64,000 nt of DNA from Dacryopinax spathularia (Eukaryota > Basidiomycota > Dacrymycetes > Dacrymycetales > Dacrymycetaceae), in contig JBBPFI010000015.1 in NCBI GenBank assembly GCA_037974965.1, positions 779,001 through 843,000 of the forward strand, written 5' to 3'. The translations under genes and the position numbers were made by a program. The first letter of the stretch is position 1, and each line of letters opens with the position of its first letter. Below the pieces are notes generated by a model. It saw only the letters and a program-made list of their open reading frames with translations, was not told where the DNA came from and searched no databases. Shown in pieces: positions 37,520 through 44,760 of this stretch.

Positions 37520-38364
37520 TTACTCGGTGGCCTCGGTGTGCCTGGGACGGCTGAGGACGCGGAGCTGCTCTGTTCCCAGCGTCAGCAGACCACATCCAAG
37601 AGCGAAAAAAAGGAAGGTAAGGCGCTCACCATGCCTCAAAAAGATCTGCCTCTGCGCCCCCGGCGTGCCCGGCTCGGCGTCGGGCTGCGGCTCGCGCGTC
37701 TCAAAGTTTGCTTCTACGTAGACTTGGGAGCCCTTCTGGAGGGACTTGAGGTACTCGTTTTGGTTTGGGTTGAAGGAGAGGACGCGGTGCCAGGTTGTGG
37801 TGGGTTCGGGGCGGTCTTAGGGGGGGCGAGGTTAGCACTCAGTATTTAACACTCATCCAGGCCAGCAAGGGAAGAAGGGAAGAGGTCAGGGAGACGAGGA
37901 GGACGAAGAGAAGGACGAGGATGAGCAGGATGGAAAAAAGCAGGATGGATGATGGCATAATAGACGGATGGAAGATGTAGAGAGATAAGACAAGAAGAGA
38001 AAAAGCACGCACTCCCATCCTCCCCCACAGGCGGAGCATAATTCGTCGTCGCGACCACATACGACACATACTCCTTCTCGTTCCTAGTCAGCTTGACCTG
38101 CGGCTCGCCCCCCAAGCGGCCAACAAGGATAAGCTTGGCAACGTCTGTCTTGCGCGCGGTCGAGGTGGAGAACAACTGCATTTGTTCGTGGTGGCATCGT
38201 ATCATAGCATGAGGTGAGGAGAGGAGCATGGGCAGAGGGAGGAGAGGGTCGCGAAAGAGAAGGGGCGGGTTTAACGCGTCAGCCAGGCATCCTACTAATC
38301 AAACAGAGAGAAGAGACGTACGCGGCGCTGCGCCTGAGGCCTCATCGCAGTCCTAAGAACGTTC
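37520..38364 (-). CDS. RIM1: mitochondrial single-stranded DNA-binding protein (Rim1-type)
   Basis: Bacterial-type SSB imported into mitochondria, where it coats single-stranded mtDNA in replication. The start at 38364 gives MNVLRTAMRPQAQRR, continued after an intron by LFSTSTARKTDV: a basic, Ser/Thr-rich presequence. The OB fold begins KLILVGRLGGEPQVKLTRNE and continues YVVATTNYAPP, TTWHRVLSFNPNQNEYL, LQKGSQVYVEANFETRE and QRQIFLRHEQLRVL, the standard SSB strand order with the Trp-His-Arg motif. Three introns (donors GTACGT, a second GT donor after EDG, and GTGAGC) are in phase. The stop is at 37520. It lies head-to-head with HBS1, sharing a 315-bp promoter interval. Confidence 0.92.
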
Positions 38365-38679
38365 ATGCTTCCTATATCTCCAAGTTTATCGAATATAGCC
38401 AACGAAGTCGAGGTAACGAGCGAGCGATGTCGAGGTGAAGAGAGGGAGAGACGCGGAAGGTGGCGGGAAACGCGACGGTTGATGAGGGTTTGAGGGTGCA
38501 CAAGCCGAAAAGGGAAAGAGCGGGTGCGGAGAATGAATGTACGGGATGCCTCCGCCAAGCGTAGGGGTTATTTGGGAGGGCGTCATAGGCGCTTGAAGTG
38601 CAGAGTGCAGAGTACCGATCGTGCAGAGCTGTTAGATTTGTTTTTGTATACCACTCCTGCTCAAAGAATATAGAACAAG
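38365..38679. promoter_or_regulatory. divergent promoter between RIM1 and HBS1
   Basis: 315 bases between two outward-facing start codons. No TATA box or named site is obvious. The arrangement suggests a bidirectional promoter. Confidence 0.45.
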
Positions 38680-40183
38680 ATGTCTAGACATAGGCTTATA
38701 AGGAACTTAGACCTCGATGGTAAGCCCTTCCCCCCTCTTCTCCTCTACCTCTTGCTCATGCACAACTCAGAGGAAATGGCCGAGGACGACCCCTACGACC
38801 CCGAACCAGAACCAGAACCCGAACTCTCAGAATCCGACAACGCGCAACTCCAATCCGCCTGCCAAGCCGTGCGTGATATTCTTGGCCCTGAAGAGGATAG
38901 CGGGATAGGGGATGGGGAGATCGCCGATGCGGTATGGGAGTTCTGGTTCGATGTGGAGAAGAGCGTGGGTTGGCTGTTGGGTGCGTCTCTCCCCCCTTCC
39001 CCTGGCCTTCTGCTTCTCCCCTCCTAATATATGTTGATGTTGATGACGAGTAGAGCAGAGGGATAAGAGACTAGAAAAGCAGAAGAAGGGTAAGCTCTTT
39101 TCCCTACCTTAATATTTCGTTTCGTTATTTTCTCTCTTCCTCTTCGGTCCGTTTTCTGCTTCTGCTTCTCTTCAAACCGATGGACATCACCCGCCCACGC
39201 GATGTCCAGACACCCTATCAAAGCTGGACACCGCAACCCCTACCTCGGCCGTCCAACGCCTATCTCTGGCCTCTCCGATGCGTGGTGCTGGTAGAAGGCG
39301 CGGTCGGCCACGACCACCAGGCGCGACGTTCACTTCCCGTCCTGCTGCCCCGCTGCCCACGGCACGGACAAAACCGTCGTTGGCGAGCCTCGCTGCTTTG
39401 CGAGCGGGGAAGCCGAATGGAGGTCTAGCTGCTCTAGCAGCACGCTCACCAGCCGCTACTACCTTCGGAGCTGCGCCTGGGAGCACGAAGCCAAGTCTTG
39501 CTTCCCTCGCCGCTACACGTTCTTCCGGCGCCTCTGTTGGGACAAAACCGACCCTCTCCTCCCTCGCCACCAAACCCACCCCCAACGCCGGTGCCTCATC
39601 CCTAGCCTCACTCCCCTCGCGCCCCCCCAACCCACCCCCAACGTCTCCCAACCCCCCCACCCCAGCTCCGGGCTCAGCAAGCAGCGGAAAGCCCACCCTG
39701 GCCTCCCTCGCAGCTTCCAGAGTTGCAGCGCAGGCCAAGCCCTCCCTCGCCTCGCTCGCTTCCCGCGCTTCGACACCCCGCACGCCTATTTCACCCGTAC
39801 CTTCGCCCTCCCCTACGCCAGGACCAGCAAGCCCGGGCGGGAGTAAGTTGTCGAAGCTTGCCCAACTGGCACAACGCTCCCAATCTGCCGCTTCCGTGGA
39901 AGCCGCATCCCCGGAGACTTGCGAGCAGGAGGACATCGACATGTCCAACCCCCCTCCCTCTGCCGAGCTGGACACGACGAGCGCGCTCTTCCTCCCCCCG
40001 TCCGCTTCGCTAGCCGCAGAAGCGTCCCCATCCGCCTTCGGCTCGATACTCGTACATCCCCCTTCACTACCAGAGCCAAAGATGGACCTGCAGTTTGGGG
40101 TCGACGTGCTTCCTGGGGCGTTTGAGGGTCCGAGTCCGGATGATATCGTCCGGTCTAGGCAGGCGGGGAGGGTGGGGCGGTAG
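38680..40183 (+). CDS. predicted SKI7-like isoform made by retaining intron 39843-40387
   Basis: If the donor at 39843 is not used, the frame stays open for 113 more codons and stops at 40183, giving a protein with the HBS1 N-domain and linker but no GTPase. The extra segment has [12 protein letters not shown] and ends [20 protein letters not shown], close to the PFxFDxPSPDD-like motif known from Ski7-like isoforms of HBS1 genes in fungi, plants and animals, which bind the cytoplasmic exosome. Ski7-like proteins bridge exosome and Ski complex in 3'-5' mRNA decay. That the open frame and motif exist is seen directly. That the retained form is produced and binds the exosome is inference. Confidence 0.7.
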
Positions 40184-42412
40184 TTGGAGTTGGTTTGGGG
40201 TCACTAGCCCGCCGGGGCTGACCGGGGCTGGGTGGATGAAGGTTGGGAGGGGTGAGCGGGGTGGGTAAGGGGTAGGGTGGGTGTGCGTTGTCTTCCTCCT
40301 TTCCCTCCTTTCCTCTTTTTTGTTCTTTCTTTTTGCTGTTTATTGTTCACGTCCGAAGGGGTAGCATCCTAACCTTCGCCTGAGCAGCTGCGCAACCCAA
40401 ACCAACACCCAAAAAGCCCACCCCCACCTCCCAGCCCACTCACAAGCCTCCAGCAAGTACGACCAAAAAGAAACCACCTACCACGACAAAGCCCACCTCC
40501 GCTACCACCGCCTCCTCCGATGCCCCTGCCTTGCGACCAACACAAGCCGGGCATACGCAGCTGGACGACGACCTCGCCGGCCTGAACATCTCCCAAGATC
40601 CCGAAGACGCTCAGAAGGCCGAGGATGCTGTGGCTGAAGTCGAGGTGCCGAAGCCGAGTCTGGCGAAAGAGAAGCTTTTGGAAGAGGTTGGGAGGAGGTT
40701 GGAGAGCGCGGTTAGGGGGTTGAATTTGGTTATTATTGGTACGTCTGTACTTCCTTGCTGTCCTCCATTCCTTCCTCTCCTCTTCCCCTCCTCCTTCGTT
40801 CCTTCTGGAAGGGAACACCGGGCTGATGGAACGGAAAACTGGGCTGATGCTGATGATCGTACAGGACACGTCGATGCGGGCAAATCCACTCTTATGGGAA
40901 GATTGTTGTATGAGCTAGGCGAGCTGGACGAGAAGGCTAGAAGGGGGAATGAGAGGGAGAGTGAGCGAGCGGGGAAGGCGAGTTTTAGGTGGGCTTGGGC
41001 GCTGGACGAGAGTGCCGAGGAGCGCGAGCGGTACGCTCTTTCCCCCCTTCCTCTCCTAACGTACTGATTTCTGACGCGATTGCTTTTCCGCGTGTTTGAT
41101 GATAGAGGAGTGACGATGGACATCGCCACCACGCACATCCGTACCCCTTCCCTCCTCATCACCCTCCTTGACGCACCAGGGCACGCAGATTTCGTACCAA
41201 ACATGATCTCCGGCGCTGCTCAAGCCGACGCGGCCCTACTGGTGGTCGACGCGTCGCCCAATTCGTTCGAAGCGGGGTTCGAGAGGGCGGGGCAGACGAG
41301 GGAGCATTTGGTGCTTGTTAGGGCTTTGGGGGTGAGCCAGGTTGTCGTGGCTGTTAATAAGATTGATCTGGTCTGTCCTCCTCCTATCTTGGCTTAGGGC
41401 GCTGGGAAATTGATGTGCTTGCGCAGGCGATCGACGCGGAAGCGAGGTACAACGAGATCCTCACCCAGCTAACACCCTTCCTCCTCCAAACGGGATTCCA
41501 ATCTTCCCGCATAACATTCGTCCCCCTCTCAGGAATAGAGGGGATCAACCTCACCTCGCCCTCTCCCGCCCAGCTCCCCTGGTACTCAGGCCCAACGCTC
41601 CTTTCCGCCCTGGACAGCCTGCAGCCGCCCGCTCGACCCTACACCCTCCCGCTTCGGATCCCGCTCTCGAACGTCTTCAGAGGCCAGACAGCCCTGGCAA
41701 GTGGCATTGGCGTGACCGGCCGCGTAGTGAGCGGCGTAGTCCAGGTCGGGGAGAAGTTGCGGATCTTACCCGGGGATGAGAGCGCCGTTGTCCGACGTGA
41801 GCTTTGCCGTTCTCTTCTTTTAAAATTTGAAAGCGACAAGCTCACGCTTTTGTAAGTGATCGAGCAGGATGACGAGAGCGTTCCTTGGGCCGCGGCGGGG
41901 TCGACTGTCACTCTCTACTTAGCGGGGGTGGACCAGGTGCATCTAGAGTGCGTTTCCCCTCCTTAGAAGATACAGATACAGATAGAACCGAGCACTGACA
42001 CCCGCGACGCAGGATCGGCTCCGTCCTCTGTCCCCCTGACGCCCTCGTCCCACTCACAACAACCTTCACAGCGCAAATAATAACGTTCGACCTCTCTCTC
42101 CCCCTAACGCCCGGCATGCCCGTCGAGCTCTTCCACCACTCTAGGAACGTCCCGTGCACGCTGTCCAAACTTCTCGCCACGCTAGACCGGACAACGGGCA
42201 CCGTCTTGAAGTCAAACCCGCGCGTGCTGACGAAGGGTCAGTCGGCGAGGGTGCAGGTGAGTTTGAGGACGGGCACTATCTCGGGTCCGGGGGAGAGGGT
42301 CGCGCCCGTGCCTATGGAGACGTTTGGCGTGAATAAGGATATGGGAAGGGTGCTTTTGAGGAGAGGGGGGGAGACTGTTGCGGCGGGGATCGTGTTGGAG
42401 CTGTTGGGCTGA
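38680..42412 (+). CDS. HBS1: Hbs1, ribosome-rescue translational GTPase (spliced isoform)
   Basis: Partner of Dom34/Pelota in no-go and non-stop mRNA decay. The start is [20 protein letters not shown]. The N-domain helix region ([29 protein letters not shown]) matches HBS1_N. A long linker has five KPSLASLA-type motifs. The GTPase has GHVDAGKST (G1), ERGVTMDIA (switch I/G2), DAPGHADF (G3), and NKID (G4), with [15 protein letters not shown] and [11 protein letters not shown], all typical of eRF3/EF1A-like Hbs1. Beta-barrel domains II and III follow ([39 protein letters not shown]). The Hbs1 form needs removal of a 545-nt intron (39843-40387) that joins in phase; other introns are 50-110 nt. 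Confidence 0.92.
39332..39766 (+). repeat. five-copy KPSLASLA-type linear motif in the HBS1/SKI7 linker
   Basis: The translated linker contains [51 protein letters not shown] and [12 protein letters not shown] at irregular spacing (about 15-45 residues). A related [11 protein letters not shown] motif lies in the retained segment. Such Ser/Leu/Ala-rich short motifs are probably repeated docking peptides. Confidence 0.75.
39843..40387 (+). other. alternatively retained intron of HBS1/SKI7
   Basis: The donor is A|GTAAGTTG at 39843. The acceptor is TGAGCAG|CTG ending at 40387, with CTAAC about 18 bases upstream. Both sides are phase 1/2 compatible (A + CT = Thr). At 545 nt it is about ten times the usual intron here, and its first 341 nt are coding-like. 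Confidence 0.7.
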
Positions 42413-42689
42413 TCATCCGGCCATATAAATTCGTATGAGCCACGAGGACAACCTCAGACATGCACTGTATCGTTTAGAAAGAATGAGAAATGTAACGAAA
42501 TGAACATTTGCGTGTGTTGTCCGCCATTATCACTTCCAGTTTGCGAGCCATGCTGAACGTGACACAGAGCCCAGAAGAGCGCCGATGGACCCTGGACAGA
42601 AGATTGAAGCGCCCATAACAAAATTCGACCATCCTCTCCCCTTCACCTCCCACCATCCCTCACGAAGCTACCGCTACGAGCCGGACAAT

Positions 42690-43710
42690 ATGAGGCAGAA
42701 GCGAGCAAAGTCATACCGCAAGCTAATGGCGCAGTACGAGCGCCATTTTGGCTTTCGTCAGCCATACCAAGTCCTCGGTACCGCCTTCCCCACTTAGCTC
42801 TTGCGCACCTACTCACGCCAGTGTGATGTAGTCAATGCCGACTTTTGCGAGCTAGCGATACAGTTGAAGATGGACTTTATGAAGGAGATCGAGACTGTTT
42901 TCCAGGCGAAGGTCAAGCCCAGTCAGTACACTCTCACTCTCACATGAACTTCCCGCAGCAGGCTAACGCGAGAACAGTGATAACCCAATGCTGCATCACC
43001 TCTCTCTACAAACTGGGCCCCCCGGGTCAACGCATCGTCGACCTCGCAAAGACGTTCGAGCGGCGCCGGTGTGGGCATCTCGAGACCCCTCTCGCACCGG
43101 ACGAATGTATAGTCGCCGTTGTTGGGGAGACGAATAAGCATCGGTATGCGGTTGCCACGCAGTCGGAGAGCTTGAGAAGGAAGATGAGGGATGTGGAGGG
43201 TGTGCCGGTCGTGGCGCTTAATAGGGCCGTTATGGTATTGGAGACGATGAGCGAGAAGTCAAAGGGGAAGATCCGGGCTGTGCGTTCCGTCCACAACATT
43301 CTCTTTGAGTACAGGCTGATGCAAGGTAGATGGAGGAGGAGATGCTTGCGGCGTCGAAGGAGGAAGTGGCCGCTCTTAAGCCGGCGCTGAAGGCTGCGGA
43401 GAAGGCTTTGGAGGGGGAGAGACCGCCTGCTGCGCCGGTGGTGAAGAAGAAGAAACCGAAGGCACCGAATCCTCTCAGTGTTCGGAAGAAGAAGACGAAG
43501 GCAGCGTCGGCTGCAAAGCCTACGGTGGGGGAGAAGGAGTCGCCCGTTCGACTGGGAAAGCGGGGGAGGGAGGATGAGCAGCCTGCTGGGGGCCAACATG
43601 ATGCTGAGGATGCTGCGGGGAGGAAGAGGCGAAAGAGGAGGAGGAAGCATAAGAGTGGGGAGGATAACGGGACCGTGGCCGGAGGAGATACTGAGGGCGA
43701 TTCGGAGTGA
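42690..43710 (+). CDS. UTP23: UTP23, U3 snoRNA-associated 90S pre-ribosome factor
   Basis: Start chosen at 42690, because UTP23 proteins begin MRQKRAKSYRKLM; an in-frame ATG at 42585 would add 35 atypical residues. The PIN-like domain reads QYERHFGFRQPYQVL, NADFCELAIQ, FMKEIETVFQAKVKP, MITQCCITSLYKLG, FERRRCGH, CIVAVVGETNKHRYAVATQS, VPVVALNRAVMVLE. The Cys/His set (CC...C.H..C) matches the zinc-binding motif of the family. Introns at about 42779-42830, 42920-42976 and 43281-43329 join in phase. The tail is Lys-rich (KKKKPKAPNPLSVRKKK), as usual. It acts in the nucleolus in early 18S rRNA processing and snR30 release. It follows HBS1 on the same strand and is convergent with the next gene. Confidence 0.93.
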
Positions 43711-43947
43711 TGCGTGGCGGGAGAGGCGACATCTACGATTTTTCATGACTCCTGCATGTATGTATAATGGTCCACAACATAATTCAAGCCCGCTTCTGCA
43801 CATCATTCCGAGATTTGCTCGCAGGACATGGGACTCCGCGCTTAGTAGACGACACGCTCGGTTCTGATTTTGCTTCTTCACCATCCAATACTGTACAAAG
43901 CGTACCAATGCACCCAAGTCCCTCCCGTCCACCCACACACAAAAGCC

Positions 43948-44760
43948 CTACCACTCCAACTCCCTCAGCTCCCTGCCCAACCTCCCCACTTCCCTCCACA
44001 CCTCCTCCGCACTCCTCACCTCCCCCAGCCCGAGCCCAAGCCCCTCTGCCGCACAGCCCCGAGCCCCGCCCAACGGGGTGCCCAACCCCGCCCGCCCGCT
44101 CCCATTGGGCGTATCGACCTCCACGATATTACCCAGTCTCGGACTTCTCCGCAGTACGTTCTTTTTCTTCGGCTGAGGAGGGGTAGAGGAGGTAGAGGCG
44201 GTTAGGGCGGCGAGTTCTAGGGTGAGCTGCTCGAGCTGGGCGAGGGTTGAGGGATCGAGGGTGTCCAGGTCGCTGGGGAGGGAGGCGGAAGTGGGCAGGA
44301 GGGGGGAGGGGGAGAGGTCGGCGGGAGTGACAGGTTCTGGGGATTGGGAGCTGCCGGAGGAGGAGGCAGCGGAAGGGGTGCGTGTACGTGCGGTGACGCT
44401 GGTGCTTGTGCTGGTTGGGGCGCTGGGTGCCGTACTCGGCCGACGGATGCGAGAGGGGTAGGGCGTTTTAGTCCGGAGAGAGAGCTTCGTCGGCGACCTG
44501 CTCTCCGCCCTACAAACCTCATCAGCCGTGACACTCCGTCTCTGCAAGAGAGCTACGTACCTGCTCATAGCTGGAGTTATGGACTCGCTCCGCACAGGAA
44601 TACGAGACGGCGTAGACGGCACCCCCCTCCCCGCGCTCGCACTCGTCTGAGCAGTCCCAGGCCGTTTTGGAGAACTACTCCGTTTTCGCATTCTGTGAGG
44701 GGTTGTCGTCCCTGCCGAGAAAGTGAATGGCGACATTTTGGTGATTCTAGAGCTCCTCAA
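43948..44760 (-). CDS. hypothetical Ser/Thr/Pro-rich protein
   Basis: Minus-strand gene starting at 44760 (MRSSRITKMSPFTFSAG), possibly at the ATG of MSPFTF. An intron near 44571-44517 (donor GTACGT, acceptor TTTGTAG) joins PAMSR to AESRSPTKLSL. The protein is low-complexity, with many SP/TP sites that could be phosphorylated by proline-directed kinases, then a conserved-looking end: LEQLTLELAAL, KKKNVLRRSPRLGNIVEV and EVWREVGRLGRELRELEW (amphipathic helix). I do not recognise a family. The RRSPRLG element resembles short docking motifs in basidiomycete nuclear or cell-cycle proteins, but this is only a suggestion. It is convergent with UTP23, 237 bases apart. Confidence 0.6.
   Translation of the reverse strand: MRSSRITKMSPFTFSAGTTTPHRMRKRSSSPKRPGTAQTSASAGRGVPSTPSRIPVRSESITPAMSRYVALLQRRSVTADEVCRAESRSPTKLSLRTKTPYPSRIRRPSTAPSAPTSTSTSVTARTRTPSAASSSGSSQSPEPVTPADLSPSPLLPTSASLPSDLDTLDPSTLAQLEQLTLELAALTASTSSTPPQPKKKNVLRRSPRLGNIVEVDTPNGSGRAGLGTPLGGARGCAAEGLGLGLGEVRSAEEVWREVGRLGRELRELEW

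Follow-up and report, generated by a model that had tools for sequence, protein, structure and literature searches.

Genes that encode both Hbs1 and Ski7 are known in fungi, animals, and plants (PMC3597508, PMC6143672, PMC11540850). In 2013, Marshall et al. demonstrated that SKI7/HBS1 is alternatively spliced in ascomycetes and reported expressed sequence tags (ESTs) that give exon skipping of a single SKI7/HBS1 gene in the basidiomycetes Cryptococcus neoformans and Ustilago maydis; there, basidiomycete Ski7 is proposed to be truncated and GTPase-less, the mechanism is left open, and more basidiomycete data are wanted (PMC3597508). In human SKI7, residues 555-572 bind RRP43/MTR3, residues 602-616 bind CSL4, and residues 617-632 form a helix to SKI2 (PMC11540850). 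Two sequence motifs have published consensus strings: a SKI7-like motif on the RRP43 side, given as A+PShFAahL for metazoans and RxxxFxxxL in human, and a Patch 4-like motif, given as IaPF[D/R]F[K/D][S/T]aSPDDIV+A or, in plants, as IaPFKFDaPSPDDhV (PMC6143672). Here we describe a gene on the + strand at 38680-42412 of a 64,000-nucleotide (nt) stretch of Dacryopinax spathularia DNA (contig JBBPFI010000015.1, positions 779,001 to 843,000; the whole stretch is hereafter the window), which we read from its sequence as a single fungal SKI7/HBS1 gene, that is, a dual locus, with a probability of roughly 0.87.

Joining ten exons in a scripted splice model yields an 853-amino-acid (aa) Hbs1 open reading frame (ORF) that spans + strand 38680-42412 without an internal stop and ends in a stop codon at 42410-42412. 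Exon borders come from phase, GT/AG dinucleotides, and homology, not from transcripts, and the acceptor of intron 3 (39209), which was chosen by phase, is the least certain of them. The parts of the gene that make up the HBS1 form are as follows.

38680..38719, + strand: exon 1, common to both forms; start codon; aligns to the N terminus of the solved Hbs1 3mca_A
38771..38980, + strand: exon 2, common to both forms; HBS1_N/UBAh domain (Pfam PF08938, E 8.6e-14)
39054..39089, + strand: exon 3, common to both forms; phase-consistent splice model
39210..39842, + strand: exon 4, common to both forms; low-complexity linker with a repeated LAxLA motif; splice model
39843..40387, + strand: intron 4 of the HBS1 form, 545 nt, GTAAGT...CTAAC...CAG; direct reading and script
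40388..40738, + strand: exon 5 of the HBS1 form; linker and start of the GTPase domain; Pfam and splice model
40865-41030, 41106-41370, 41427-41796, 41857-41947, and 42013-42412, + strand: exons 6-10; GTPase and downstream domains

Judged by homology, the 853-aa product is Hbs1, and the identity assigned in the original prediction (an earlier annotation of this DNA) is borne out by the HBS1_N domain, the GTPase domains, and the matches to Hbs1L and 3mca_A. At the N terminus, HBS1_N (PF08938) scores 52.1 bits against a cut-off of 26.4; the later exons match PF00009 and PF22594/PF03143 in Pfam, plus PF03144 below its cut-off, and the P-loop, DAPGH, and NKID GTPase motifs are all present. When the GTPase part was compared with solved structures, the closest relatives among the best 60 of 112 matches were mammalian-type Hbs1L (E 2e-123) and Hbs1 3mca_A (E 2.7e-94), with EF1-alpha (best 3.5e-91) and eRF3 (6.5e-74) behind them; "Protein HBS1" entries of 611 aa (3.3e-82) ranked under some EF1-alpha entries in the same set. 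We take 3mca_A to be Schizosaccharomyces pombe Hbs1 and the 611-aa entries to be those of baker's yeast. HBS1_N is the UBAh domain, for which ubiquitin binding is described in mouse (PMC13232801). In a weak alignment (E 0.078), the first loop of this domain in exon 2 (38771-38980) carries a four-residue insertion relative to the solved HBS1-like domain 1ufz_A, a feature in common with the UBAh domain of the basidiomycete Mycena sanguinolenta, where a four-residue insertion has been described (PMC13232801). The insertion is in keeping with a basidiomycete source, as is a Plavaka-type transposase match elsewhere in the window. The UBAh domain would belong to both the Hbs1 and the Ski7 products.

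The case for a second product lies in intron 4, whose splice signals are a GTAAGT donor at 39843, CTAAC at 40369-40373, and an acceptor AG at 40386-40387 preceded by a pyrimidine-rich stretch. At 545 nt (3n+2) it is a length outlier, the other eight introns measuring 51, 73, 120, 126, 75, 56, 60, and 65 nt, and its removal joins the flanking exons in phase through a Thr codon split as A and CT, leading into the exon where the GTPase begins. If intron 4 is kept, the frame instead continues for 113 codons beyond the donor (the split codon counted) to a TAG at 40181-40183, and the unspliced reading gives a 419-aa protein consisting of the Hbs1 N-terminal domain, the linker, and a 113-codon extension, with no GTPase. 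Direct reading and a script both reproduce what the original prediction had reported here, namely in-phase removal of 545 nt between the donor at 39843 and the AG at 40387 by way of CTAAC, and a frame running 113 codons further to a stop at 40183. The features specific to this second reading are the following.

39842..40183, + strand: predicted SKI7-specific C-terminal extension, 113 codons and stop, read when the proximal donor is bypassed; codon score
40022..40051, + strand: putative SKI7-like motif, 7 of 10 positions of the metazoan consensus
40106..40153, + strand: putative Patch 4-like motif (CSL4 and SKI2 contact by analogy), 11 of 16 positions

Within the linker (39371-39890), the pattern L[AS].L[AP] occurs at 9 places in the 419-aa form, the last two just 3' of the donor. 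Intron 5 (40739-40864, 126 nt, a multiple of three) also leaves the frame open, for 42 codons; it contains a 21-nt repeat in roughly two copies, and its in-frame codon score is below zero.

The retained segment is very probably coding, a judgment that we base on codon usage that fits the continuing frame only, and not on open length. With a codon table of 1,798 codons taken from the HBS1 GTPase exons and from parts of three other ORFs of the window (two with Pfam domains, the third unscanned), 39843-40180 scores +0.128 bits per codon in the continuing frame versus -0.202 and -0.181 in the other forward frames, and none of 5000 dinucleotide shuffles of the intron matched this value; the stretch 3' of the SKI7 stop scores -0.487. 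For each of exons 2-10 (9/9; exon 1 was unscored), the true frame outscored the other two forward frames. All eight remaining introns of the gene have negative scores when read in the upstream frame, and in 3 of the eight that frame ranks highest of the three forward frames. The signal is present in each half of the segment: 39845-40012 scores +0.098 in frame versus -0.285 and -0.220 in the other frames, a result reached by 1/2000 shuffles (3/2000 for the second quarter of the segment, the latter part of this half), and 40013-40180 is matched by 10/2000. The in-frame score thus supports the earlier proposal that the retained part is coding.

We scored the extension for Ski7 motifs by treating the published consensus strings as position sets, the Patch 4 set being the union of both strings (PMC6143672). 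The 11/16 match to Patch 4 was reached by 2/20,000 residue shuffles, and the runner-up scores in a six-frame scan of the whole 64-kb window were 9. The PSPDD-type Ski7 hallmark named in the original prediction holds up. The 7/10 match to the SKI7-like motif was reached by 389/20,000 residue shuffles and is weak alone. The putative SKI7-like motif precedes the Patch 4-like motif, as in the published order, and lies about 50 residues from the C terminus; counted back from the C-terminal end, the S of SPDD comes 16th, and the stop follows closely. This upstream motif (40022-40051), which the original prediction did not mention, adds to the apparent Ski7 case. The codon signal and the two putative Ski7 motifs, which follow the published order and sit where an HBS1 gene should have them, together favor the dual-locus reading.

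Several observations weigh against this reading. Three of the nine scored exons (3, 4, and 6) score below zero in frame and are therefore missed by the codon model, whose table was partly trained on HBS1's own GTPase exons. Taken by itself, the opening quarter of the segment (39845-39928) has a weak signal (139/2000 shuffles), and open length is weak evidence, with 4.6% of 5000 dinucleotide shuffles open for at least 112 codons in that frame. An antisense ORF of 337 codons (39187-40200, - strand) spans the linker and the SKI7 segment; it probably reflects the G+C richness of the coding strand. As for the motifs, the SKI7-like motif is without the consensus basic residue, and the first half of Patch 4 is only partly matched: in place of consensus I, F, D/R/K, K/D, and the position that follows, the extension has V, G, A, E, and G. 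Sequence searches against solved structures gave no Ski7 match for the extension; searched alone, it returned one irrelevant match (MurE, E 2.7), its last ~32 residues returned none, and the complete 419-aa form and a shortened version of it matched Hbs1 N termini only (3/3 matches each).

The dual-locus reading places the gene close to several described systems. Like the C. neoformans and U. maydis genes, it would be one alternatively spliced gene with an Hbs1 product lacking the Ski7 part and a Ski7 product proposed to be GTPase-less; there splicing leaves the Ski7 exons out of the HBS1 mRNA, whereas here Ski7 coding continues from the preceding exon (PMC3597508). Human HBS1L isoform 3/SKI7 likewise combines the common N-terminal domain with a different, GTPase-less C terminus and an exosome-binding tail. 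Its tail closes with a conserved helix directly behind the CSL4 patch, much as the 419-aa form stops soon after SPDD, but human SKI7 is longer (modeled to residue 632, with the exosome-binding part at 555-632) and the span from motif to end is shorter here (PMC11540850). In Lachancea kluyveri and Aspergillus nidulans, a single gene also yields two proteins by splicing in the linker between the N-terminal domain and the GTPase; those species use alternative 3' splice sites with the GTPase downstream of both, whereas here the Ski7 form ends before the GTPase (PMC3597508). The two L. kluyveri proteins are reported each to complement only the corresponding Saccharomyces cerevisiae deletion, ski7 or hbs1 (PMC3597508). 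Arabidopsis HBS1/SKI7 shares the succession of a SKI7-like and then a Patch 4-like motif and differs in having a cassette exon, a Ski7 form with the GTPase, an acidic N terminus, and a zinc finger (PMC6143672).

The dual-locus concept, which the original prediction treated as known, matches the published basidiomycete and animal cases (PMC3597508, PMC11540850). A dual HBS1/SKI7 locus is well supported here but not new, since the concept, basidiomycetes included, was published in 2013, and the general picture of one gene for ribosome rescue and exosome recruitment is unchanged. What this gene offers is a clean case, in which Ski7 coding continues from the linker exon, contains both motifs, and stops before the GTPase; this arrangement favors a truncated, GTPase-less Ski7 as in animals. 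A 2018 PNAS survey from the group of Marshall et al. reportedly may already cover this architecture. In a literature search that covered few subscription papers, the only other source naming both Ski7 and basidiomycetes was a 2008 paper, which regarded Ski7 as confined to some Saccharomyces species and whose available text contains no word beginning with "splic" (PMC2613156).

We propose the following division of labor. When the proximal donor at 39843 is used and intron 4 is spliced, the mRNA would encode Hbs1, a translational GTPase that splits stalled ribosomes with Dom34/Pelota. When that donor is bypassed, translation would run 113 codons further to the stop at 40183 and produce a GTPase-less Ski7, in which the common UBA-like domain and linker are followed by a putative exosome-binding tail with the SKI7-like and then the Patch 4-like motif. 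By analogy with human SKI7, this tail may tether the exosome core and contact SKI2, and the mRNA on the stalled ribosome would be degraded. We infer the existence of both mRNAs, the SKI7 splice choice, and the binding partners, and one switch might then balance ribosome rescue against exosome recruitment.

Because Ski7 coding continues from the preceding exon, the bypass would need either retention of the whole intron or a distal donor, near 40252 or 40265, used with the same acceptor. Full retention is plausible as the switch; it fits the tendency of fungi toward intron retention (PMC2397502) and the unusual length of this 545-nt intron, which may be removed inefficiently. The original prediction had proposed a dual locus that works by full retention with polyadenylation after 40183, and while the dual locus is well supported, the latter part fares less well. 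We tested ten poly(A)-type signals (AATAAA, variants, and TGTA types); the 204 nt that separate the SKI7 stop from the acceptor contain none of them, are 10.8% A, and nowhere have three A in a row, whereas an equal length 3' of the HBS1 stop is 30.4% A and contains 5 of the ten. Poly(A) signals in fungi are loose, and their absence is a hint only. The intron RNA (39833-40397) is no more stable than its shuffles (z +1.58; 96/100 shuffles fold at least as well), Rfam gave no match at the gathering score in 38000-44000, and a bacterial promoter and terminator scan is uninformative for fungal DNA.

A distal 5' splice site joined to the acceptor at 40387 could produce the SKI7 mRNA in place of full retention, a variant of the dual-locus reading that we hold tentatively, as somewhat less likely than not. 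The two candidates are the following.

40252..40257, + strand: candidate distal donor GTGAGC, 136 nt to 40387; the same hexamer as the intron 8 donor
40265..40270, + strand: candidate distal donor GTAAGG, 123 nt to 40387

The protein would be the same, and the GTPase exons would become a spliced 3' untranslated region. These donors lie 68 and 81 nt 3' of the SKI7 stop, with the pyrimidine-rich stretch and CTAAC downstream of both and usable by them, and their introns of 136 and 123 nt resemble introns 3 and 5 (120 and 126 nt), by comparison with which the 545-nt intron is an outlier; the lack of any of the ten poly(A)-type motifs in the 204 nt that would belong to an unspliced terminal exon points the same way. 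On the other side, 40240-40290 contains 9 GT dinucleotides, so that donor-like hexamers are expected by chance, and a junction after the stop is a liability. An exon junction well downstream of a stop can expose an mRNA to nonsense-mediated decay, and the SKI7 mRNA could be so exposed.

That the two kinds of 5' splice site actually compete for the one acceptor, 39843 for HBS1 and 40252 or 40265 for SKI7, we consider rather unlikely. It would be the mirror image of the ascomycete arrangement, where two 3' splice sites compete. If it is true, the SKI7 mRNA would have junctions at least 68 nt past its stop, nonsense-mediated decay could determine its abundance, and the supply of Ski7 could be tied to the state of mRNA surveillance.

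We give still less credence to a cassette exon, in which the donor at 39843 would be spliced to one of two acceptors inside the intron, ending at 40013 and 40019, just before the SKI7-like motif. In-frame acceptors (...CGCTAG before CC and ...GCCGCAG before AA) do stand there behind a pyrimidine-rich stretch, both Ski7 motifs would be kept, and exon skipping is supported by ESTs in the two basidiomycetes C. neoformans and U. maydis (PMC3597508). However, the 168 nt of 39845-40012 would then be lost from both mRNAs, and these carry the in-frame codon signal matched by 1/2000 shuffles, an objection softened by the weakness of their first half alone (139/2000). An in-frame LAQLA copy of the linker type just 3' of the donor also speaks against the cassette exon, but 1411/20,000 shuffles hold such a pattern.

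The weakest alternative, an Hbs1-only gene whose retained frame is an accident or decayed remnant and whose unspliced transcripts are destroyed, can draw on the 4.6% of shuffles with an open frame and on the non-functionality of intron-retained mRNA in most described fungal cases (PMC3597508), but it is very improbable given that the codon signal extends through the 113 codons and that both Ski7 motifs follow one another as published, where an HBS1 gene would be expected to carry them.

Relatives of the extension were sought in prokaryotic, viral, phage, and plasmid collections. In prokaryotic contigs, the retained segment gave 136 pattern-matching stretches, from which one locus was returned, in a Chloroflexi metagenome-assembled genome (E 2e-6, relative to the candidates only). 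We rejected it as a chance match: the locus runs antisense to a 906-aa ORF resembling, by eye, an ABC-transporter permease, and its + frame gives PPPSAELD and then an immediate stop. In viral contigs, 29 stretches matched the pattern of the GTPase exon and 21 that of the retained segment, and none was confirmed.

Outside the gene, the downstream neighbor (42827-43387, + strand) contains an Fcf1 domain (E 8.7e-31) and is probably UTP23- or FCF1-like. A divergent neighbor at 37849-38298 on the - strand has a weak match to SSB, single-stranded DNA-binding protein (E 4.6e-5, 23.9 bits against a cut-off of 26); it is perhaps the mitochondrial SSB, with a promoter region in common with HBS1. Farther upstream, 15640-17187 matches a Plavaka-type transposase (E 3.3e-61).

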